Source: Lachnoanaerobaculum sp. ICM7 (GTDB taxonomy: Bacteria; Bacillota; Clostridia; Lachnospirales; Lachnospiraceae). Taken from it: DNA of 64,000 nucleotides. A program made the position numbers and the translations under genes. Under the pieces are notes generated by a model. That model saw only the letters and a list, made by a program, of their open reading frames with translations, was not told the origin of the DNA and searched no databases. The stretch lies in NCBI RefSeq assembly GCF_000287675.1, contig NZ_ALJL01000017.1:1-64000 (forward strand), given 5' to 3'. Positions 1,366 through 10,295 of this stretch are shown in pieces; position 1 is the first letter of the stretch; the number at the start of each line of letters is the position of its first letter.

Positions 1366-1477
1366 ATAGTTAATTCTTTAACAAGAATATGTCCACATAA
1401 ATGGAGTGGGAGATAGTTTAAACGGTATCATATCCCAAATACCTAAGGACAAAACAATTATACCAGGAGGAAATGAT

Positions 1478-2539
1478 ATGAAGGGTTATGCAATGCTGAA
1501 GATCGGTGAGTCAGGATGGATTGAGAAGGAGAGACCGAAATGCGGTCCTATGGATGCTATATGTAGACCGTTGGCACTCGCTATATGTACTTCAGACGTA
1601 CATACACTTTGGGAAGGTGCTATCGGTGAGCGTCACAACATGATATTGGGACATGAAGGTTGTGCAGAGGTTGTAGAAGTAGGTGAATTGGTAAAAGATT
1701 TTAAACCGGGTGACAGAGTTTTGGTACCTGCAATTACACCTGACTGGAATTCACTTGAGGCTCAGGCAGGATTTTCTATGCACTCAGGCGGAATGCTTGC
1801 AGGATGGAAGTTTTCAAACTTCAAAGACGGTGTATTCTCAGAGTATTTCCATGTAAACGATGCTGACGGAAACCTTGCTTTACTTCCGTCGAGTATAAAT
1901 ACTGTAGATGCATGTATGCTTTCAGATATGGTTCCTACAGGTTTTCATGGTGCAGAGCTTGCAGATGTTCAGTACGGTGATTCAGTTTTAGTAATCGGAA
2001 TCGGACCTGTAGGTCTTATGTCGGTTGCAGGCGCGGCTCTTCGTGGTGCTTCAAGAATTATCGGTGTAGGAACAAGAAAAGTTTGCCGTGATGCCGCTAA
2101 ATTCTACGGAGCAACAGAATTCATCGGATACAGAGAAGGACCTATCGATAAGCAGGTTCTTGATATGACCGGAGGTAAGGGAGTTGATAAGATTATCATT
2201 GCAGGCGGTACTGTAGATACATTCGCAGAGGCTGTTAAATGTCTTAAGCCGGGCGGAAGAATCGGAAATGTAAACTACCTTGGTGAAGGTGAGAGCATTG
2301 CTATTCCACGTGTAGAGTGGGGAGTAGGAATGGGACATAAACTTATCAATGGAGGTCTTATGCCGGGTGGTAGACTTCGTATGGAGAAGCTCGGTTCATT
2401 GGTAGCTGCAGGTAAGCTTGACCTTGCACCTCTTAGCAGCCATGTATTTAACGGATTCGATCATATCGAAGAAGCTTTGTTCTTGATGAGAGATAAGCCG
2501 GAAGATCTTATTAAGCCTGTAGTTAAGATAGAAGATTAA
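1478..2539 (+). CDS. adh: NADP-dependent secondary alcohol dehydrogenase (zinc MDR family)
   Basis: The 353-residue protein should interconvert secondary alcohols and ketones (for example isopropanol and acetone) with NADP(H) in the cytoplasm. It closely resembles the Thermoanaerobacter brockii enzyme as I remember it: it starts MKGYAML and contains GAIGERHNMILGHE and HSGGMLAGWKFSN. The catalytic zinc ligands C37, H59 and D150 and the neighbouring E60 are present. G198, T199, R200 and Y218 match the NADP-phosphate pocket (the brockii enzyme has Ser at 199). The Rossmann motif GIGPVG is at 174-179. I chose the ATG at 1478 because AGGAGG lies 7 bases before it and the product then starts like its relatives; an in-frame ATG at 1406 would add 24 unmatched residues. 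The next gene starts 4 bases after the stop. Confidence 0.93.
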   Translation: MKGYAMLKIGESGWIEKERPKCGPMDAICRPLALAICTSDVHTLWEGAIGERHNMILGHEGCAEVVEVGELVKDFKPGDRVLVPAITPDWNSLEAQAGFSMHSGGMLAGWKFSNFKDGVFSEYFHVNDADGNLALLPSSINTVDACMLSDMVPTGFHGAELADVQYGDSVLVIGIGPVGLMSVAGAALRGASRIIGVGTRKVCRDAAKFYGATEFIGYREGPIDKQVLDMTGGKGVDKIIIAGGTVDTFAEAVKCLKPGGRIGNVNYLGEGESIAIPRVEWGVGMGHKLINGGLMPGGRLRMEKLGSLVAAGKLDLAPLSSHVFNGFDHIEEALFLMRDKPEDLIKPVVKIED

Positions 2540-2543
2540 TCCC

Positions 2544-3482
2544 ATGGATATCTTGATTGTATCCGGTTTTTTAGGGGCCGGGAAAACTACATTTATAAAG
2601 GCTCTTTCAAAAAAGACCGGTAAGGAATTTGCCATTCTGGAAAATGAATACTCAGATCTTGGTGTAGACGGTGAAAGGCTTCAAGATTCGACTATAAATA
2701 TCTGGGAACTGACGGAGGGATGCATATGCTGTTCTACAAAACAGGATTTTGCACAGTCGGTTTTAACCATTGCAAATACTATTTCTCCTGACTATTTGGT
2801 TGTAGAGCCGACAGGTGTGGCTAAGCTTGGAAATATAATCAAGAATCTGCAAAGGATAGAATATGAAAAAATAAGACTCTTATCCCCGATATGTATATTG
2901 GATATAGAGGGGATAAGAAGCTACGGCAATGAATTTCCGGATATATTCAAAGATCAGATATGCAGTGCAGGTCAGGTAATACTTTCAAAGACTGAAAACC
3001 TTTCAGAGAGAGAAAGAGCTTCACTGATAAACGAGGTTAAAAGTATAGATCCGGAATCTGTTGTAACGGACAGACATTATTCGGAGTACCGGACGGAGTG
3101 GTGGGATGAGATTCTCTGCACTTATCCGGACGGAAGTAAAAAGATTGTACAAAAAACTGATGATACATCGGATATGCTTGATACATTTTCTTTATCTGAA
3201 GTAAAGGCATCAGGTATAGGAAGCTTTGTATGTTTTATGGAAAATATTATAAGGGGAGAATATGGTGATATTGTCAGGGCTAAGGGCAATATATCAACAG
3301 ATTCAGGAAACATCACTTTTGATGTGGCAGGCGGCAGATATGCACTTCTTTTAACAGAATCTTCTGAGGATTCAAAAGCTGTATTTATAGGAAACAGAAT
3401 CAGAAAACAAAAAATAAGAAAAGTATTATTTGAAAATTCTAAGAATGTAAAGATACTGCCGTTTGGGGCGTACAAAAGATAA
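2544..3482 (+). CDS. CobW/COG0523-type G3E GTPase, putative metal chaperone
   Basis: This 312-residue P-loop GTPase belongs to the CobW/YjiA group, whose members bind metal ions (often zinc) and pass them to client proteins. Visible motifs are Walker A GFLGAGKT (8-15), the family metal site CICC (C60, C62, C63), EPTG (88-91) and the base-recognition motif SKTE (148-151, standing for NKxD). The weakly conserved C-terminal part (from about 210) fits the CobW_C domain. It begins 4 bases after the zinc enzyme adh and shares its promoter, so delivering metal to that dehydrogenase is a reasonable inference, not a demonstrated role. Translation is probably coupled, since no clear ribosome site precedes the ATG. 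Confidence 0.85.
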   Translation: MDILIVSGFLGAGKTTFIKALSKKTGKEFAILENEYSDLGVDGERLQDSTINIWELTEGCICCSTKQDFAQSVLTIANTISPDYLVVEPTGVAKLGNIIKNLQRIEYEKIRLLSPICILDIEGIRSYGNEFPDIFKDQICSAGQVILSKTENLSERERASLINEVKSIDPESVVTDRHYSEYRTEWWDEILCTYPDGSKKIVQKTDDTSDMLDTFSLSEVKASGIGSFVCFMENIIRGEYGDIVRAKGNISTDSGNITFDVAGGRYALLLTESSEDSKAVFIGNRIRKQKIRKVLFENSKNVKILPFGAYKR

Positions 3483-3528: not shown

Positions 3529-4395
3529 TCAATTCTTAAGAATCTTAGGTAAAACTTCGGACAGTATAAATGAAAATATTACAATTGCTCCACCTATAAT
3601 TAGATTCGGAGTAAAAGACTCGTGTAAAAGTGTTATTCCCATAACAGCAGCCATCACACTTTCAAGAGAGAGCAATACTCCGCTTGTTGTGGCGGATACA
3701 TGTTTCATACCGTACAGTATTAAAAAGAAAGGTAAGGTTGTACAAAATACGGTAAGATATATTAACTGAAAGCTGTCTGAAAGATTTAAGGCAAAACTGT
3801 TATTTCCGATTAAAACTAATGACAGGATAGAAAGAACGGCTGTAGTGGAAACCTGCAATACATTCAATATTCCGGAATCATAAAGTTTTGAGTACTTAGA
3901 TGAAATAACAATATACAAAGCATAGTCAACAGCACAAAGTATGCAATATATATCACCGATATGAAAGCTTCCAAGATTATTACCTAAAATAAAGAATACG
4001 CCTATCATGCAGGTAACTGAAACAATTATATCGGATAATGAGGGTCTTTTTCTCATTATAACAAGGTATGCAAGGGGCAGGAGTATAATATATGATGCAA
4101 TAAGTAAAGATGAGCGTGAGGTTGTTGTATACTGTAAGCCGACTGTAAATGTAAAAAATTCTCCGAAAAGAAATATGCCCATTATTATACCGGCTTTTAA
4201 TATTTCAAAATTTATCTTCAATAGCTTTTTATTATAAATAAATACAAGTATTATTGCTGCAAAAGAAAATCTTAAAGACAATATCATATAAGGTGACACA
4301 TCTTCTAAAAGCTGTTTTACAAAAATATAGGCTGAAGCCCAGAAAAATGTAGCAGTAAATAATGCAAAAAAAGCCGGAATCTTTTCTCTATTCAT
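3529..4395 (-). CDS. EamA/DMT-family transporter
   Basis: This 288-residue integral membrane protein has about ten hydrophobic segments arranged as two repeats of five, the layout of the drug/metabolite transporter superfamily (two EamA domains). It starts MNREKIPAFFALFTATFFWAS; the phrase FFWASAYIFVKQ is typical of the first EamA helix. The substrate cannot be read from sequence; family members export amino acids, nucleotides or drugs. The ATG is preceded by GGGGGA on the minus strand. It is transcribed away from the Hcp-linked operon, with a 254-base intergenic region between, so shared regulation is possible but unproven. Confidence 0.85.
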   Translation of the reverse strand: MNREKIPAFFALFTATFFWASAYIFVKQLLEDVSPYMILSLRFSFAAIILVFIYNKKLLKINFEILKAGIIMGIFLFGEFFTFTVGLQYTTTSRSSLLIASYIILLPLAYLVIMRKRPSLSDIIVSVTCMIGVFFILGNNLGSFHIGDIYCILCAVDYALYIVISSKYSKLYDSGILNVLQVSTTAVLSILSLVLIGNNSFALNLSDSFQLIYLTVFCTTLPFFLILYGMKHVSATTSGVLLSLESVMAAVMGITLLHESFTPNLIIGGAIVIFSFILSEVLPKILKN

Positions 4396-4539: not shown

Positions 4540-4553
4540 TTAACATCGGTTAC
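4540..4553 (+). promoter_or_regulatory. Crp/Fnr-type operator, site 1
   Basis: TTAAC-ATCG-GTTAC is a near-perfect palindrome (TAAC-N4-GTTA) of the Crp/Fnr/HcpR class. Its centre (4546.5) is 29.5 bases before the -10 box at 4576, which places it at about -41.5 from the predicted start. The hcp promoter has the same motif at exactly the same distance. The likely ligand is the Crp/Fnr-like protein encoded at 7572-8243. Confidence 0.75.
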
Positions 4554-4575
4554 AGATTTTTTGTTGTACTCAAAC

Positions 4576-4581
4576 TAGAAT
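4576..4581 (+). promoter_or_regulatory. -10 box of the SBP-GTPase-ATPase-regulator operon
   Basis: TAGAAT has no good -35 hexamer at the correct spacing (CAGATT), as expected for an activator-dependent class II promoter. The predicted start is near 4588, giving a leader of about 60 nt. Confidence 0.6.
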
Positions 4582-4649
4582 ATGATTTACCTATAGTATT
4601 AGCCGGGACATACTTATCCGGCTTTGTTTAATCAGTTAAAGGAGTTTAT

Positions 4650-5870
4650 ATGAATAAATACTTTGATATAAAAGATAAAGTATACGATGTTACAGAAAAG
4701 TACCCGGAGCTTATAGAAGTATTGGCAGGTGCAGGATTTGAGAATTTAAAGAATGATATGATGAGAAAATCAATGGGAAAACTTCTCAGTCTTGAAACCG
4801 CTTTAAAGAGTAAGAATATAAATGTTGAGGTATTTGAAAAGCAACTTGTAGAGGCCATTGAGAGAAAGACTGTAATGTCTGATAATAACGGTATTGTAAG
4901 AAATCAGGATGAAAATGCAAAGACCTCTATAAAGGGAATATTGCCATGTCCTGTAAGAATGCAGTTTATAGAAAAGTTTGAAAAGTTTGTGGAAAGTCAG
5001 GACTATGAAATCAACTACAATCTGAATGCCGCAAGTATGGGAATGGAAGTTATTGAAGAAGAAATAATGAATGCAAAGACGGAAGACGATTTGTCGGATG
5101 TATATATGTCGGCAGGATTTAATTTGTTTTTTGATAAGAAATTGATGGGCAAGTTTAGAGATAAGGGTGTTTTTGTAGACTATAGACAGGGAAAATTAAA
5201 TAAATCTCTAGATAACGGAATGATTTCCTTAAAGGATCCGAAAGGAGAATATTCTATAATAGGCGTTGTTCCTGCAATTTTTATTGTAAATAAGGATGTA
5301 CTGGGAGACAGAAGTTTACCTGTTTCATGGGAAGATTTATTTAAGCCTGAGTTTGAAAACTCAATAGCACTTCCTACTTCGGATTTGGATATGTTTAATG
5401 CAATTATGCTTGGAATATATTCAAATTATGGTAAGGAAGCCATAGAAGCACTTGGAAGAGGTCTTTTAAAGTCTATGCATCCGGCACAGATGGTAAAGAC
5501 CGGAGGAAGAAAAGATTTCAATGCACCTGCAGTAAGTATTATGCCTTATTTCTTCTCAAAGACCATAAAGGAAAATTCAAACCTTACAGTGGTTTGGCCA
5601 AAGGACGGAGCTATAATAAGTCCTGTATTCCTTTTGACAAGAAAGAAAAATTATGAAAACAGTAAGCCTTTAATAGATTTTCTGTTATCAAAAGAAGTGG
5701 CGGATATATTGGGTGCAGACGGTAAATTCCCACAGACAAACCCTGAATATGATAATAAACTTGCAGATGATCAAAACTTCCTTTGGGCAGGATGGGATTT
5801 TATTCATTCAAATGATATCGGAGAGATCCTTTCAAATACTGAAAAATGGTTTTACGGTCAGACAGAATAA
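4650..5870 (+). CDS. Cytoplasmic DUF1858-like domain fused to a type 2 solute-binding domain
   Basis: This 406-residue protein has two parts. Residues 1-72 look like a DUF1858/ScdA_N-type small helical domain (VYDVTEKYPELIEVLAGAGF), but the usual cysteine pair is absent: the place of CLGC is taken by ENLK. Residues about 93-400 resemble ABC-transporter periplasmic-binding proteins of the iron (AfuA/FutA) type, including PVSWEDLFKPEF and the late EVADILG segment. There is no signal peptide or lipobox, so the binding domain appears to work inside the cell. It is the first gene of an operon with a HypB-like GTPase, an ABC ATPase and a Crp/Fnr regulator. My inference is a metal- or cluster-handling role tied to Hcp. 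Domain identities are from pattern memory. Confidence 0.7.
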   Translation: MNKYFDIKDKVYDVTEKYPELIEVLAGAGFENLKNDMMRKSMGKLLSLETALKSKNINVEVFEKQLVEAIERKTVMSDNNGIVRNQDENAKTSIKGILPCPVRMQFIEKFEKFVESQDYEINYNLNAASMGMEVIEEEIMNAKTEDDLSDVYMSAGFNLFFDKKLMGKFRDKGVFVDYRQGKLNKSLDNGMISLKDPKGEYSIIGVVPAIFIVNKDVLGDRSLPVSWEDLFKPEFENSIALPTSDLDMFNAIMLGIYSNYGKEAIEALGRGLLKSMHPAQMVKTGGRKDFNAPAVSIMPYFFSKTIKENSNLTVVWPKDGAIISPVFLLTRKKNYENSKPLIDFLLSKEVADILGADGKFPQTNPEYDNKLADDQNFLWAGWDFIHSNDIGEILSNTEKWFYGQTE

Positions 5871-5884
5871 GGAGAGATTAATAT

Positions 5885-6583
5885 ATGAATTTAGTTATAT
5901 TTTCAGGCCCTCCTTCGTCGGGAAAGACCTCTGTTATTTTAAAAACTATTGAAGCAATGAAGGATAGAGGTATAAAGGCGGGAGTTGTAAAGTTTGACTG
6001 TTTATATACCGATGACGATATCATATATGAAAAGGCAAACATTCCTGTAAAGAAAGGACTTTCGGGAGGACTTTGTCCCGATCATTTCTTTGCATCAAAT
6101 ATCGAAGACGTTGTGAAATGGGGAAGAGAACAAGGTCTGGATCTGCTTATTACGGAGTCGGCAGGACTTTGTAATCGTTGTTCACCTTATATTACAGATA
6201 TAAAAGGTGTATGTGTAATAGACAATCTCTCAGGTATAAATACACCTAAAAAAATAGGACCTATGCTAAAGGCGGCGGATATCGTAGTCATAACAAAGGG
6301 CGATATAGTAAGTCAGGCGGAGAGAGAAGTATTCAGCGGTAGAGTAAGTGCGGTAAATCCGAGAGCCATGGTAATGAATGTAAACGGACTCAGCGGTCAG
6401 GGCGCATTCGAGTTGTCTACATTAATATATGACAATGAAGTAAATATTGAGTCGGTACAGGGAATGAAGCTCAGGTTTGCAATGCCTTCGGCAATGTGCT
6501 CGTATTGTCTGGGAGAAACCAGAATAGGAGAAGATTACCAATTAGGTAATACCAAGAAGATGCAATGGGAGGCAAATAAATGA
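5885..6583 (+). CDS. HypB/UreG-like G3E GTPase with CxxC motifs
   Basis: This 232-residue P-loop protein resembles the SIMIBI-class metallochaperone GTPases (HypB, UreG) that drive insertion of nickel or other cofactors. Walker A is GPPSSGKT (8-15); ESAG (91-94) occupies the position of the HypB/UreG ENVG motif; TKGD (137-140) replaces NKxD. Two cysteine pairs stand out: C96-N-R-C99 immediately after the ESAG switch, and C205-S-Y-C208 near the C-terminus. Both could bind metal or an Fe-S cluster and sit where nucleotide state could control them. The gene begins 14 bases after the solute-binding gene, with GGAGAG ahead of the ATG, and its stop overlaps the next start (ATGA). No hydrogenase or urease genes are nearby, so a different client, possibly Hcp, is inferred. 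Confidence 0.75.
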   Translation: MNLVIFSGPPSSGKTSVILKTIEAMKDRGIKAGVVKFDCLYTDDDIIYEKANIPVKKGLSGGLCPDHFFASNIEDVVKWGREQGLDLLITESAGLCNRCSPYITDIKGVCVIDNLSGINTPKKIGPMLKAADIVVITKGDIVSQAEREVFSGRVSAVNPRAMVMNVNGLSGQGAFELSTLIYDNEVNIESVQGMKLRFAMPSAMCSYCLGETRIGEDYQLGNTKKMQWEANK

Positions 6584-7614
6584 GTGAAATGAAATTAAAA
6601 GATTTACTGGAAAAATATCCTTTTGCTGCAGATTTCTTTGAGAGCGCAGGTTTTGATATCACTGAAAGTTTGGATGCAACTTTTTCTGAATTTTTGGATG
6701 GATTTACCGAAGAAGAACTTGAAGAAACAGCAATAAATAAGGTAGAATTAAAAATCCAGCTTGACACATTCATCAAGCAAATGCTACAATTCCTTGGTGA
6801 TAACAAAGAAAAAATAGAAAGTTTAACTATTTTTCCGGGACATAACAAAAGTGGAGAAAGAGAAAATTGTGAAAAATTTGACATTTTTTCTTCACAAATT
6901 GTGTCTATAGTTGGACCTACAGGATCCGGAAAGAGTAGATTGTTGGCTGACATAGAATGGGCAGCACAAAATGATACCCCTACCGGTAGAACCATATATA
7001 TAAATGGTAAAAAACCGGATCCGAAATGGCGTTATTCTACAAATAATAAATTGGTTGCACAGCTATCACAAAATATGAACTTTGTTATGGATCTTACTGC
7101 CCGTGAATTTATAACCATGCATGCGGAGAGCAGAATGGTCGAAGATATTGAGACCGTAGTTGAGAAGATCCTTTATGAAGCAAATAAACTTGCCGGAGAA
7201 AATTTTGCACCTGAAACGGCAGTAACAGCTCTGAGTGGAGGCCAGTCCAGAGCTTTGATGATTGCCGATACAGCGGTGCTAAGTTCTTCACCGATAGTTT
7301 TGATAGACGAGATTGAAAATGCCGGAATAGACAGAAAAAAGGCTTTAGACCTTTTAATATCCCAGGATAAAATAGTCCTTATGGCTACACATGATCCTCT
7401 TTTGGCATTGATGGCGGATAAGAGAATTGTTATCAAAAACGGTGGAATTGATAAGATAATTGAAACAACGGCAGAAGAAAAGGAAGTTTTGGTGCAACTG
7501 AACTATATTGACGGAATTATGCAAGAATCTAGAAAAAGACTGCGTGCGGGTATGACGCTTGAAGGAGATATATGTCAGGAAATTACACAGAGTCCCCACT
7601 CTTTAGGGGAATGA
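6580..7614 (+). CDS. DUF1858-like domain fused to an ABC-type ATPase, no permease
   Basis: In this 344-residue protein, residues 1-70 again resemble the DUF1858-type helical domain (LKDLLEKYPFAADFFESAGF) without its cysteines. Residues about 98-300 form an ABC ATPase: Walker A GPTGSGKS (112-119), Q-loop near Q161, signature LSGGQ (218-222), Walker B IVLIDE (239-244) and switch H271. All catalytic elements are intact. No membrane protein is encoded in the operon, so this is not an ordinary importer; soluble ABC ATPases such as SufC act in cluster assembly or other ATP-driven work. Its ATG overlaps the GTPase stop, and its 3' end overlaps the regulator gene by 43 bases, pointing to tight co-expression. 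Confidence 0.75.
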   Translation: MSEMKLKDLLEKYPFAADFFESAGFDITESLDATFSEFLDGFTEEELEETAINKVELKIQLDTFIKQMLQFLGDNKEKIESLTIFPGHNKSGERENCEKFDIFSSQIVSIVGPTGSGKSRLLADIEWAAQNDTPTGRTIYINGKKPDPKWRYSTNNKLVAQLSQNMNFVMDLTAREFITMHAESRMVEDIETVVEKILYEANKLAGENFAPETAVTALSGGQSRALMIADTAVLSSSPIVLIDEIENAGIDRKKALDLLISQDKIVLMATHDPLLALMADKRIVIKNGGIDKIIETTAEEKEVLVQLNYIDGIMQESRKRLRAGMTLEGDICQEITQSPHSLGE

Positions 7615-8243
7615 CTGAAGAGGAGATAGAGCTTTGCTTAAAAGAGGCAAGGGCCGATATCCTCGGTTTTAGAAAAGGTGAGATGATTTTCAATCAGGGA
7701 GACAAACCAAGATACATTACCATGTTGGTTGAGGGTAGTGTATCTGTAGGAAATGACTCCGTGAACGGAAAAAGAAGTATATTAGGTATGTTTTCAAACC
7801 CCGGAGAGCTTTTCGGAGAGGTTTTTTTGTTTTTAAATCATGATGAGTATGCAAATTATGCATGTGCAAGTTCACCAAGTAAGATTTTGGAGATACCGAA
7901 AGAGTATCTTACAAGACTTGGAGATAAGCCTTCAGCACTTCAAAATAAAATGCTCTCAAATCTGCTTACAATATTTGCGGAGAGGACATACTATTTAAAT
8001 AACAGATTACAGGTACTCTCATGCTCAACATTAAAGCAGAAGATTGCCAGATTTATATTGCAGAATATGAATGACAGAGACAGAGTTACTTTAAAGATGA
8101 GTAGAGAAGAGTTTGCGGACTTTTTAAATGCCGCAAGACCTTCACTCTCAAGAGAACTTATGAAAATGCAGGAAGACGGTTATATAAAGGTTGTGAGAAA
8201 AGACCTTATAGTAAAAAATCTGGAGGGACTGAAAAGTCTTTAA
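7572..8243 (+). CDS. Crp/Fnr-family transcription regulator
   Basis: This 223-residue regulator has an N-terminal cyclic-nucleotide-binding-like beta-barrel (about 10-125, FNQGDKPRYITMLVEGSVSV), a long dimer helix and a C-terminal Crp helix-turn-helix (about 178-205, FADFLNAARPSLSRELMKM). It lacks the N-terminal cysteine cluster of classical Fnr. HcpR-type family members control hcp in response to NO or nitrite and recognise GTAAC-like half-sites. The two operators at 4540 and 8260 make it the obvious controller of its own operon and of hcp. The start ATG has GGAGAT just upstream. The sensed signal is not readable from the sequence. Confidence 0.85.
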   Translation: MSGNYTESPLFRGMTEEEIELCLKEARADILGFRKGEMIFNQGDKPRYITMLVEGSVSVGNDSVNGKRSILGMFSNPGELFGEVFLFLNHDEYANYACASSPSKILEIPKEYLTRLGDKPSALQNKMLSNLLTIFAERTYYLNNRLQVLSCSTLKQKIARFILQNMNDRDRVTLKMSREEFADFLNAARPSLSRELMKMQEDGYIKVVRKDLIVKNLEGLKSL

Positions 8244-8259
8244 AAAAAAACATTGCTCA

Positions 8260-8273
8260 GTAACCAAAGTTAC
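8260..8273 (+). promoter_or_regulatory. Crp/Fnr-type operator, site 2 (hcp)
   Basis: GTAAC-CAAA-GTTAC is a perfect palindrome of the Crp/Fnr/HcpR class. Its centre (8266.5) lies 29.5 bases before the -10 box at 8296, the same geometry as site 1 upstream of the SBP operon, so RNA polymerase should be activated in class II manner. Confidence 0.82.
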
Positions 8274-8295
8274 AGTTTTTAGATTTTCTTTCTGT

Positions 8296-8301
8296 TATTA
8301 T
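8296..8301 (+). promoter_or_regulatory. -10 box of the hcp promoter
   Basis: TATTAT with no recognisable -35 hexamer at the right spacing. The predicted start near 8308 leaves a leader of about 90 nt before hcp. Confidence 0.6.
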
Positions 8302-8396
8302 ACACTCATGCACAAGATGCAAAAGAAAAATAAACTTAAATCTGTAGGACAGATTGCTCATAGACTGTAGAACAGTCATAGTAAGAGGAGGTAGAA

Positions 8397-10247
8397 ATGG
8401 AAAACAAAATGTTTTGTTATCAGTGTCAGGAGACAGCAGGTAACACAGGTTGTACACAGGTAGGTGTATGTGGTAAGAAGCCGGAAGTTGCAAATATGCA
8501 GGATTTACTTATATATGTAAGTAAGGGTATATCAGCAGTTACAACAAGACTTCGTGCAGAAGGAAAAGAAATAAGCAAGGAAATAAATCACCTTGTTACC
8601 TTAAACCTTTTCATCACAATTACAAATGCCAACTTTGACAATGATGCTATTATTGCAAGAATCAAGAAGACTCTTGATGCTAAGAAGGAACTTTTAAATG
8701 AACTCTCAAATAAGGATAATCTTCCTGAGGCGGCTCTTTGGGAGTCATATGATGAGAGTGAGTATCTTACAAAGGCTGCTACAGTAGGTGTGCTTGCAAC
8801 AGAAAACGAGGACATCAGAAGCCTTAGAGAGCTTATTATATACGGTCTTAAGGGACTTTCAGCATATTCAAAGCATGCAAATGCACTTTTACAGGATGAC
8901 GGTGAGGTAGATGCATTCTTACAGAGAGCATTGGCTGCAACACTTGATGACAGCTTGAGTGCGGATGATTTAGTAGCACTTACACTTGAGACAGGTAAGT
9001 ACGGTGTAAACGGAATGGCTTTACTTGATAAGGCAAACACAACAGCTTACGGCAACCCTGAGATTACAACAGTTGATATCGGTGTAGGAACAAACCCGGG
9101 TATCCTTGTTTCAGGACATGATTTAAGAGATCTTGAGATGCTCTTAAAGCAGACACAGGGAACAGGAGTAGATGTTTATACTCACTCAGAGATGCTTGCA
9201 GGTCAGTATTATCCTGAGCTTAAGAAGTATTCAAATCTTAAGGGTAACTACGGTAATGCATGGTGGAAGCAGAAAGAAGAGTTCGAGAGCTTTAACGGAC
9301 CGATCCTTATGACTACAAACTGTATCGTACCACCTAAGGCAAGTTATATTGACAGACTTTATACAACTGGTTCAGCAGGTTATCCGGGATGTAAGCACAT
9401 CGCAGGTGATATCGGTGAGGAGAAGGATTTCTCAGAGATCATAGAGCAGGCTAAGAAGTGTGCACCTCCAACAGAGATCGAGAGCGGAAATATCGTAGGC
9501 GGTTTTGCGCATGCACAGGTTCTTGCACTTGCAGATAAGGTAGTAGATGCTGTTAAATCAGGTGCTATTTCAAAGTTCGTTGTAATGGCAGGTTGTGACG
9601 GTCGTTCAAAGGCAAGAAACTACTACACAGATTTTGCAAAGGCTCTTCCAAAGGATGCCGTTATTCTTACAGCAGGATGTGCTAAGTACAAGTACAATAA
9701 GCTTGACCTTGGAGATATCGGTGGTATTCCAAGAGTTCTTGATGCAGGTCAGTGTAATGACTCTTACTCATTGGCAGTTATCGCACTTAAGCTTAAGGAA
9801 GTATTCGGACTTGATGATATCAATGATCTTCCGCTTGAGTTCAATATTGCATGGTATGAGCAGAAGGCTGTTATCGTTTTACTTGCACTTTTATACTTAG
9901 GTGTAAAGAATATTCACCTCGGACCTACACTTCCGGGATTCCTTTCACCAAATGTAGCTAAGGTATTGGTTGAGAACTTCGGTATTGCAGGTATCGGAAC
10001 AGTTGAGGATGATATCGAGCTTTTCTTCGGAAAGGTTGAGAAGGAAGTTGCTGACGGAAAGTACAGCCCTGATATGCTTATCGGTGAGGTACTCTCAGAG
10101 AACCCAGCTGCAGCAAGCGTTCTTATGGATATCGGTATGCACTGCCTCGGATGTCCTTCATCACAGATGGAGTCACTTGCAGAGGCTGCTATGGTACACG
10201 GTATCGATGTAAATGAACTTATCAGCAGATTAAATCAGTTAGGATAA
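8397..10247 (+). CDS. hcp: Hybrid cluster protein (hydroxylamine/NO reductase) with C-terminal redox domain
   Basis: This 616-residue Hcp family enzyme reduces NO or hydroxylamine and protects anaerobes from nitrosative stress. The N-terminal cluster motif is C7-x2-C10-x8-C19-x5-C25. Expected ligands of the hybrid Fe-S-O cluster are visible in GHDLRD (His), THSEML (Glu), TNCIVPP, MAGCDGR, TAGCAKY and AGQCND (four Cys) and in YEQKA (Glu). The core should end near residue 545. The remaining 70 residues form a DUF1858-like domain with C583-L-G-C586, like the separate Hcp-associated redox disulfide proteins of other bacteria, so this gene is a fusion. AGGAGG precedes the ATG. It has its own Fnr-like operator and promoter and is followed by a strong terminator. 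Confidence 0.95.
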
Positions 10248-10264
10248 TTTATATAGATAAAAAG

Positions 10265-10295
10265 ATAGCCCGGATTTAAAAGTCCGGGCTATTTT
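10265..10295. terminator. Bidirectional terminator between hcp and an AraC gene
   Basis: ATAGCCCGGA pairs with TCCGGGCTAT (10 bp) and has T residues on one side and A residues on the other. It serves both convergent genes. Confidence 0.9.

Follow-up and report, generated by a model that had tools for sequence, protein, structure and literature searches.

A G3E GTPase, a soluble ABC ATPase and an intracellular binding protein form a conserved trio that appears to share its control with Hcp in many anaerobes

What would an anaerobe do with a substrate-binding protein (SBP) that carries no export signal and an ATP-binding cassette (ABC) ATPase that has no membrane partner, encoded next to a metallochaperone-like GTPase and to the hybrid cluster protein Hcp, an enzyme of nitric oxide (NO) defence? 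The question is raised by five genes near the start of a 64,000-nucleotide stretch of Lachnoanaerobaculum sp. ICM7 DNA (contig NZ_ALJL01000017.1, positions 1 to 64,000; hereafter, the window). The first three of these genes, for an SBP-like protein, a GTPase and an ABC ATPase, form a conserved trio that, judging from sequence, appears to be controlled together with hcp in many anaerobes and probably handles metal for the cofactor of Hcp or for other cofactors. An earlier note on this DNA had described the five genes as a tandem array consisting of a binding protein without an export signal, a HypB/UreG-like GTPase, an intact ABC ATPase without a membrane partner, a Crp/Fnr regulator and Hcp, and had proposed a machine for maturation or repair of the Hcp cluster or, alternatively, a metal buffer for nitrosative stress. 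All five genes are present on the plus strand, Pfam and NCBIfam profile matches confirm their families, and each of these descriptions of the parts holds in the comparisons given below; a restriction to Hcp is not supported. Features that the earlier note did not include are the DUF1858 domains of the SBP-like protein and Hcp, a weak related domain in the ABC protein and two sites of the HcpR2 type. The locus is laid out as follows:

4540..4553, plus strand: HcpR2-type operator TTAACATCGGTTAC, with 1 mismatch to GTAACnnnnGTTAC; the SBP start codon lies 96 nucleotides downstream
4650..5870, plus strand: SBP-like protein gene (406 aa; DUF1858 at about residues 7-61, SBP_bac_6 at 146-388)
5885..6583, plus strand: HypB/UreG-like G3E GTPase gene (232 aa; invariant C64-P-D-H67, C96-x2-C99 and C205-x2-C208)
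6580..7614, plus strand: soluble ABC ATPase gene (344 aa; complete nucleotide-binding motifs and a DUF1858-like N-terminal extension)
7572..8243, plus strand: Crp/Fnr regulator gene (HcpR2 recognition-helix signature R-P in ARPSLSREL)
8260..8273, plus strand: HcpR2 operator GTAACCAAAGTTAC, perfect; the hcp start codon lies 123 nucleotides downstream
8397..10247, plus strand: hcp, hybrid cluster protein/hydroxylamine reductase family (616 aa; C-terminal DUF1858/TIGR03980)

The SBP and GTPase genes are separated by 14 bp, the GTPase and ABC genes overlap by 4 bp, the ABC and Crp genes overlap by 43 bp, and 153 bp separate the Crp gene from hcp. No permease is encoded between the genes of this unit, the rest of the genome not having been searched for one. 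The closest ABC proteins, with 97% identity, come from Lachnoanaerobaculum sp. OBRC5-5 and L. gingivalis.

For comparison across genomes, the trio (the module) was assigned to the Hcp type if its GTPase was at least 70% identical to that of the window, and 93 Hcp-type loci were fetched, 13 from the order sample (146 genomes) and the remainder as the best 80 of 561 ABC relatives in genome contigs; the best-80 sample is biased toward the closest relatives, and the 561, collected at a loose tblastn threshold (E ≤ 1e-3) that may take in other ABC ATPases, are not a count of modules. Where the full trio is visible, in 90 of the fetched Hcp-type loci, the order SBP > GTPase > ABC on one strand is kept in 90 of 90, so the tandem arrangement is not attributable to chance (L052, L075 and L112, with one or two of the three genes missing in the fetched DNA and two of them located at a contig end, were left out). 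Mechanical gene calling gave no GTPase open reading frame (ORF) at 8 of the 97 fetched loci, where tblastn shows the gene in all but L052, and also overlooked the GTPase gene of L154. Among the phyla represented by Hcp-type carriers are Bacillota, Spirochaetota, Bacteroidota and Fusobacteriota, along with candidate phyla (Aminicenantota, Cloacimonadota and Fermentibacterota, for example). Averaged over alignment columns across phyla, identity reaches 78% in the GTPase, 64% in the ABC protein and 54% in the SBP-like protein. In the GTPase tree, the Hcp-type rows fall on one side of a branch (support 89/72, with long-branch warnings). Among viral contigs, no relative of the ABC protein was confirmed (3 stretches matched the pattern, none of them confirmed), and a PHROGs search with the SBP-like protein and the GTPase gave no match.

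The regulatory sites suggest the setting in which the module acts. The Crp/Fnr protein of the window reads ARPSLSREL at the recognition helix, that is, it carries the R-P signature of HcpR2, which our alignment to CRP numbering places at CRP position 181. The accessible part of the original description defines HcpR2 by Pro replacing Glu at that position and by the motif GTAACnnnnGTTAC (Rodionov et al. 2005, PMC1274295). Searching the fetched loci for this motif with at most 1 mismatch within 200 bp upstream of genes, we found it before 39 of 83 SBP genes (shuffled expectation 0.6), 25 of 33 hcp genes (0.2) and 21 of 1395 other genes (7.6), several of the latter being divergent from the module or from hcp, with the same site common to both. 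Where the fetched DNA includes hcp, the operator precedes 26 of 30 modules, and where it does not, 13 of 52; of the nine carriers whose genomes gave no hcp, four keep the site (L069, L077, L084 and L107). Among the Crp/Fnr rows near modules, 14 of 21 show R-P, and a site lies upstream of the SBP gene in 13 of these 14 loci (the exception is L079); the P-E loci L093 and L115 have none. The presence of HcpR2 sites before both hcp and the module, kept in relatives, thus argues that the module belongs to the nitrosative-stress regulon. Both the regulator signature and the operator GTAACnnnnGTTAC before hcp agree with the published HcpR2-hcp regulon, for which the accessible sections list hcp, frdX, nitrite/nitrate reductase, hemerythrin-like and other members, the trio going unmentioned in those sections (PMC1274295). 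In C. difficile, frdX-hcp is the only direct target of HcpR, as judged from a predicted site (PMC12915319, accessible part).

The window's Hcp lies well over the curated cut-off of NF003658 (860.2 vs 367 bits). In the order sample (ABC protein at E ≤ 1e-25, hcp over the cut-off; 4 of the 18 ABC carriers are divergent types), hcp is found in 18 of the 18 genomes with the ABC protein versus 47 of the 128 others. Of the 22 Hcp-type genomes in the order and phylum samples, both chosen irrespective of hcp, 15 encode hcp no more than 10 kb from the module (8/14 and 7/8, respectively); hcp adjoins the module in 34 of the 93 fetched loci, and among the 80 genomes behind L043-L122, it was detected at E ≤ 1e-60 in 71, in 70 of them over the cut-off. 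The earlier note had named a lack of co-occurrence with hcp in other genomes as refuting its reading; such co-occurrence exists, and a link to hcp is supported by neighbourhood, co-occurrence and the common operator. The phylum-sample co-occurrence (hcp in 19 of 20 GTPase carriers) was discarded as too weak to use, given that hcp is present in 212 of the 299 genomes overall.

Gene adjacency, the operator common to both, the distribution of hcp among carriers and, in the window's genus, the DUF1858 domain on Hcp and SBP alike fit a machine dedicated to Hcp, whose Fe-S-O hybrid cluster alone it would load or rebuild. This explanation is nevertheless an unlikely one. The search at E ≤ 1e-60 found no hcp in nine of the 80 carrier genomes, namely, the complete chromosome of Leptotrichia hongkongensis, another Leptotrichia, Parvimonas micra, three Aminicenantes and three other metagenome-assembled genomes (MAGs), the absence being weak for the MAGs but not for the Leptotrichia case. 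Most genomes with hcp, in turn, lack the module (in the order sample, hcp over the cut-off in 65 and the ABC protein in 18 of 146), and in the Hcp proteins encoded at the fetched Hcp-type loci, a DUF1858 tail was seen in the window's genus only. E. coli has hcp (control match), and we know of no such trio in this bacterium. Because nine carrier genomes gave no hcp, the module is not strictly an Hcp accessory, clients other than Hcp are required, and the proposal of a machine dedicated to the Hcp cluster is not supported as it stood. The reading that we tentatively prefer, with a confidence that stops short of even, is that the trio is a cytosolic, nucleoside triphosphate (NTP)-driven metal relay of the nitrosative-stress (HcpR2) regulon which builds or repairs metal cofactors under NO, with Hcp as the commonest candidate client and not the sole one.

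The GTPase is the best conserved component. It matches the cobW/HypB/UreG domain (2e-12) and stays below the curated cut-offs for HypB (TIGR00073, 48.4 vs 121.2 bits) and UreG (TIGR00101, 30.7 vs 204.2 bits); the motif CxCC, named as that of COG0523 metallochaperones in the accessible text of PMC9164220, is absent from its sequence. The G3E (SIMIBI) motifs GPPSSGKT, ESAG and TKGD, the last replacing NKxD, are invariant or nearly so in 39 aligned members, and C64-P-D-H67, C96-x2-C99 and C205-x2-C208 are kept in 39 of the 39. For the predicted model (mean predicted local distance difference test score, pLDDT, 79.5; predicted template modelling score, pTM, 0.82), the seven best structural matches are solved HypB and UreG structures, which, together with the domain match, places the protein in the HypB/UreG kind. 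Profile alignments place C64-P65 on the Cys-Pro of UreG and C96/C99 within the Cys loop of HypB, at a different exact column; the metal ligands of Methanocaldococcus jannaschii HypB are Cys95, His96 and Cys127, according to the accessible part of PMC7055735. At the level of sequence, conservation of these sites would fit a G3E metallochaperone, which binds a metal and passes it on in a GTP-dependent manner. The P-loop, the G3 Glu, the G4 TKGD, the metal-type Cys-Pro-x-His and the closest folds are common to the module GTPase and to the HypA/HypB and UreE/UreG nickel insertion systems, whereas the scores below the cut-offs, the extra C-terminal CxxC and the coupling to an ABC ATPase and an SBP-like protein set it apart, as does, with respect to HypA/HypB, the failure of a sequence search to find HypA in the window's genome.

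An 80-residue zinc-ribbon protein called in 30 of the 93 Hcp-type loci, mostly directly after the ABC gene, was considered as a HypA-like partner. It has a near-start invariant His followed by Asp/Glu, Gly and Cys, and a CxxC...CxxC ribbon from which single members lack one Cys; its MH[DE] start recalls HypA, which begins with MHE in 11 of 11 sequences and binds nickel via the MHE motif (PMC7055735, accessible part). HypA was matched at E ≤ 0.01 by 22 of 24 small proteins (best 2.7e-5), the three with bits shown scoring 17.7-21.7 and thus not reaching the HypA Pfam cut-off of 28.9, and profile comparison, which took in 11 of the 24 HypA loci (the other 13 were dropped), gave a probability of 72.7 and E 4e-6, resting mainly on the zinc ribbon. 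Equally weak HypA matches are frequent in other proteins; the assignment was rejected, and mere resemblance remains.

The ABC ATPase (ABC_tran, 1.9e-14) retains Walker A, LSGGQ, Walker B with the Glu and the THD switch, all invariant in 39 aligned members. No transmembrane stretch was predicted in 89 GTPase and 91 ABC proteins, and proteins rich in such stretches occur in the putative transcription unit of 18 of 85 loci, mostly representing differing families; EamA-type genes recur (9 of the 97 fetched loci have one called, in some cases immediately after the ABC gene), as do ABC exporters upstream in some Tissierellia-type loci. SufC of the SufBCD system is likewise a soluble ABC ATPase without a membrane partner and a possible metal or cluster motor (PMC9164220, accessible part). 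In contrast to SufBCD, the partners here are the SBP-like protein and the GTPase, with no SufB/SufD-like partner: SufB/SufD genes are absent from the window's unit and, as a rule, are not recurrent module neighbours. Many transporter ATPase models score above any SufC model, none of which is among the best 25 matches. A SufB-like cluster (c39) was noticed by eye near the module in a few Lacrimispora-type loci.

The SBP-like protein matches SBP_bac_6 (9.8e-76) and, at its N-terminus, DUF1858 (8.6e-17), which is present in 48 of 48 aligned members. Judged by hydropathy, without a dedicated signal-peptide program, none of 85 SBPs has an export signal: over 15 residues, the hydropathy of the first 45 residues stays below 2.0 in 85 of 85 (maximum 1.74). 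The predicted model (mean pLDDT 89.8, pTM 0.76) structurally matches P5PA, AfuA, ferric-binding proteins and FutA. The module protein thus appears to have the fold of the ferric-binding proteins (FbpA, FutA), AfuA and P5PA, and differs from them in the missing export signal, the N-terminal DUF1858 and the lack of a permease. Because profile comparison relates the N-terminus of the ABC protein to the SBP N-termini (E 7.7e-6, probability 84), it can be tied to DUF1858 as well, although DUF1858 itself is matched at E ≤ 0.01 by just 3 of 39 ABC proteins; the C-terminal tail of Hcp matches Pfam DUF1858 and TIGR03980, ‘hybrid cluster protein-associated redox disulfide domain’. In L086 (Parvimonas micra), where hcp was not detected in the genome, the SBP gene is split into two shorter ORFs and possibly decayed.

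In the relay that we prefer, the SBP-like subunit would capture a metal ion or a small metal chelate inside the cell, for example, iron freed when NO destroys clusters; the GTPase might accept the metal through its Cys-Pro-Asp-His and CxxC motifs and pass it on with GTP hydrolysis; and the soluble ABC ATPase could be a SufC-like motor performing conformational work on the complex, with the DUF1858-type domains docking the ABC ATPase and perhaps holding the parts together. The clients would be metal cofactors in need of assembly or reassembly under NO, the regulon setting the timing to nitrosative stress. This context is common to the RIC/ScdA/YtfE type of iron-centre repair, and the Hcp tail shows a weak ScdA_N match (0.021, below the cut-off); the module differs from these proteins in having no hemerythrin-like di-iron domain. 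We found no description of the trio in a literature search that most subscription papers fell outside. If the relay exists, it represents a widespread intracellular metal route to cofactors in strict anaerobes, joins two types of NTPase (G3E and ABC) in one system and would explain, in a way that can be tested, how Hcp and other iron enzymes are maintained or recovered by anaerobes under NO attack; mechanism aside, a trio whose gene order holds across several phyla, whose GTPase is 78% conserved and which lies in a known stress regulon is a clear experimental target.

Several results weigh against this reading. Of the 82 modules searched, 43 lack the operator in the 200 bp upstream, and the HcpR2 pattern shows no enrichment in the genome of the window (25 matches vs 39 in the reversed control), so that the case for the operator is made by its conservation among relatives alone. 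Given the frequency of hcp in the phylum sample (212/299), the 9/9 co-occurrence there says little. Comparison of the single Hcp tail with the SBP and ABC N-terminal profiles was unconvincing (probabilities 0.7 and 1.4), and the tail is therefore linked through its DUF1858/TIGR03980 matches. The C-terminal CxxC of the GTPase sits in a low-confidence region of the model; the HypA likeness of the small protein, where scores are shown, amounts to sub-threshold zinc-ribbon similarity, and a search of the window's genome found neither HypA nor the small zinc-ribbon protein. Finally, the folds nearest to the SBP model also take sugar phosphates and pyridoxal phosphate, so the ligand could be a non-metal.

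Two further explanations draw on the same fold. Regulon membership, the ferric-binding-protein-like fold and persistence without hcp would also suit an intracellular metal buffer or store, in which the SBP-like protein sequesters iron from nitrosylated clusters while the GTPase and the ABC ATPase control loading and release, with no named client. We regard this as quite doubtful, as two NTPases with complete motifs are costly for a passive buffer and, according to the accessible part of PMC9164220, HypB and UreG act by transfer to a partner. Slightly more doubtful still is a sensor or control module, in which the SBP-like protein senses a cytosolic metabolite (a sugar phosphate, a cofactor or a nitrogen oxide product) and has its signal passed on by the NTPases: the phosphate-ligand binders among the nearest folds and the regulator gene beside the trio in some loci fit it, but the neighbouring Crp is an ordinary HcpR2, which in published genomes is also found with hcp alone (PMC1274295, accessible sections), and the metal-type Cys/His sites of the GTPase are invariant. 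A remnant or split ABC importer with its permease encoded elsewhere, a highly improbable solution, could draw on the SBP and ATPase domains, the importer genes often found near paralogous modules and the EamA-family genes, and is opposed by the uniform lack of a signal, the DUF1858 domain in every aligned SBP, the few and mostly unrelated membrane proteins in the units, and a GTPase that is better conserved than the transporter-like parts.

The paralogous (sister) modules extend the comparison. Their GTPases are 61-64% (type B) or 51-54% (type C) identical to that of the window, or more divergent, and hcp is absent from the fetched DNA of all 18 sister loci examined (L039-L042, L148-L161). Neighbours include a FecCD permease and a Peripla_BP_2 binding protein in L148 and Peripla_BP_2 in L149 and L042; in L039, two nitrogenase component-1 type proteins (PF00148; 14858-17367) accompany FecBCD-like importer genes and a type B module; further neighbours are a DUF364/DUF4213 protein (‘putative heavy-metal chelation’) in L156, a radical SAM protein in L152, an Fe-S domain protein in L041, binding-protein-dependent permeases in L159 and a peptide/nickel-type binding protein in L157. 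Where the SBP-like protein of type C is visible adjoining the ABC gene, it is encoded after that gene (L148, L158-L161). The neighbourhoods of the sister modules would point to metal as the common theme. A permease regularly adjacent in relatives, which the earlier note had named as refuting its reading, does not occur with the Hcp-type module; types B and C, however, often lie near importer genes. A broader proposal, that such modules constitute a new class of metal-delivery machine, whose three proteins, with the binding protein inside the cell and the ABC ATPase lacking a permease, run a single cycle of capture, GTP-gated transfer and ATP-driven insertion, is conceivable and at present rather speculative; the Hcp-type machines would serve cofactors under NO stress, and the sister types would process importer-supplied chelates, including those for nitrogenase-like enzymes.

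The genome of the window contains five perfect palindromes of the HcpR2 type, three inside called ORFs and two intergenic, one before hcp and one before a gene that, by eye, is mannonate dehydratase-like. On contig C24, the 14 bases of the hcp operator recur as a perfect site about 34 bp before the mannonate dehydratase-like gene (L142, near 107353), and on contig C21 of the same genome, a one-mismatch HcpR2-like site lies about 75 bp before a gene judged by eye to be cupin-like, with a hemerythrin-like ORF (also by eye) further down the same strand (L139, near 125353). Small cupin-like genes were also seen by eye near the module or hcp in L062, L111, L100, L101, L120 and L167, in the last four immediately upstream of the SBP gene. 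L107, an Aminicenantes MAG locus (near 6779-8026) from a genome in which hcp was not detected, has a perfect HcpR2-type site between the module and a divergent gene whose product, by eye, resembles radical SAM enzymes; the type C module of L152 also has a radical SAM gene nearby. Other neighbours recognized by eye are a flavodiiron protein adjoining the module in three Peptostreptococcus loci (L063, L067 and L098) and Rrf2-type regulators near five modules. Upstream of the trio in the window, positions 1406-3482 encode a zinc-type alcohol dehydrogenase followed by a second G3E (CobW-like) GTPase; both were tried as module parts and rejected, neither being matched at any of the 97 fetched loci. 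Between these genes and the trio, on the minus strand (3529-4395), lies a gene for an EamA-family transporter, divergent from the module.

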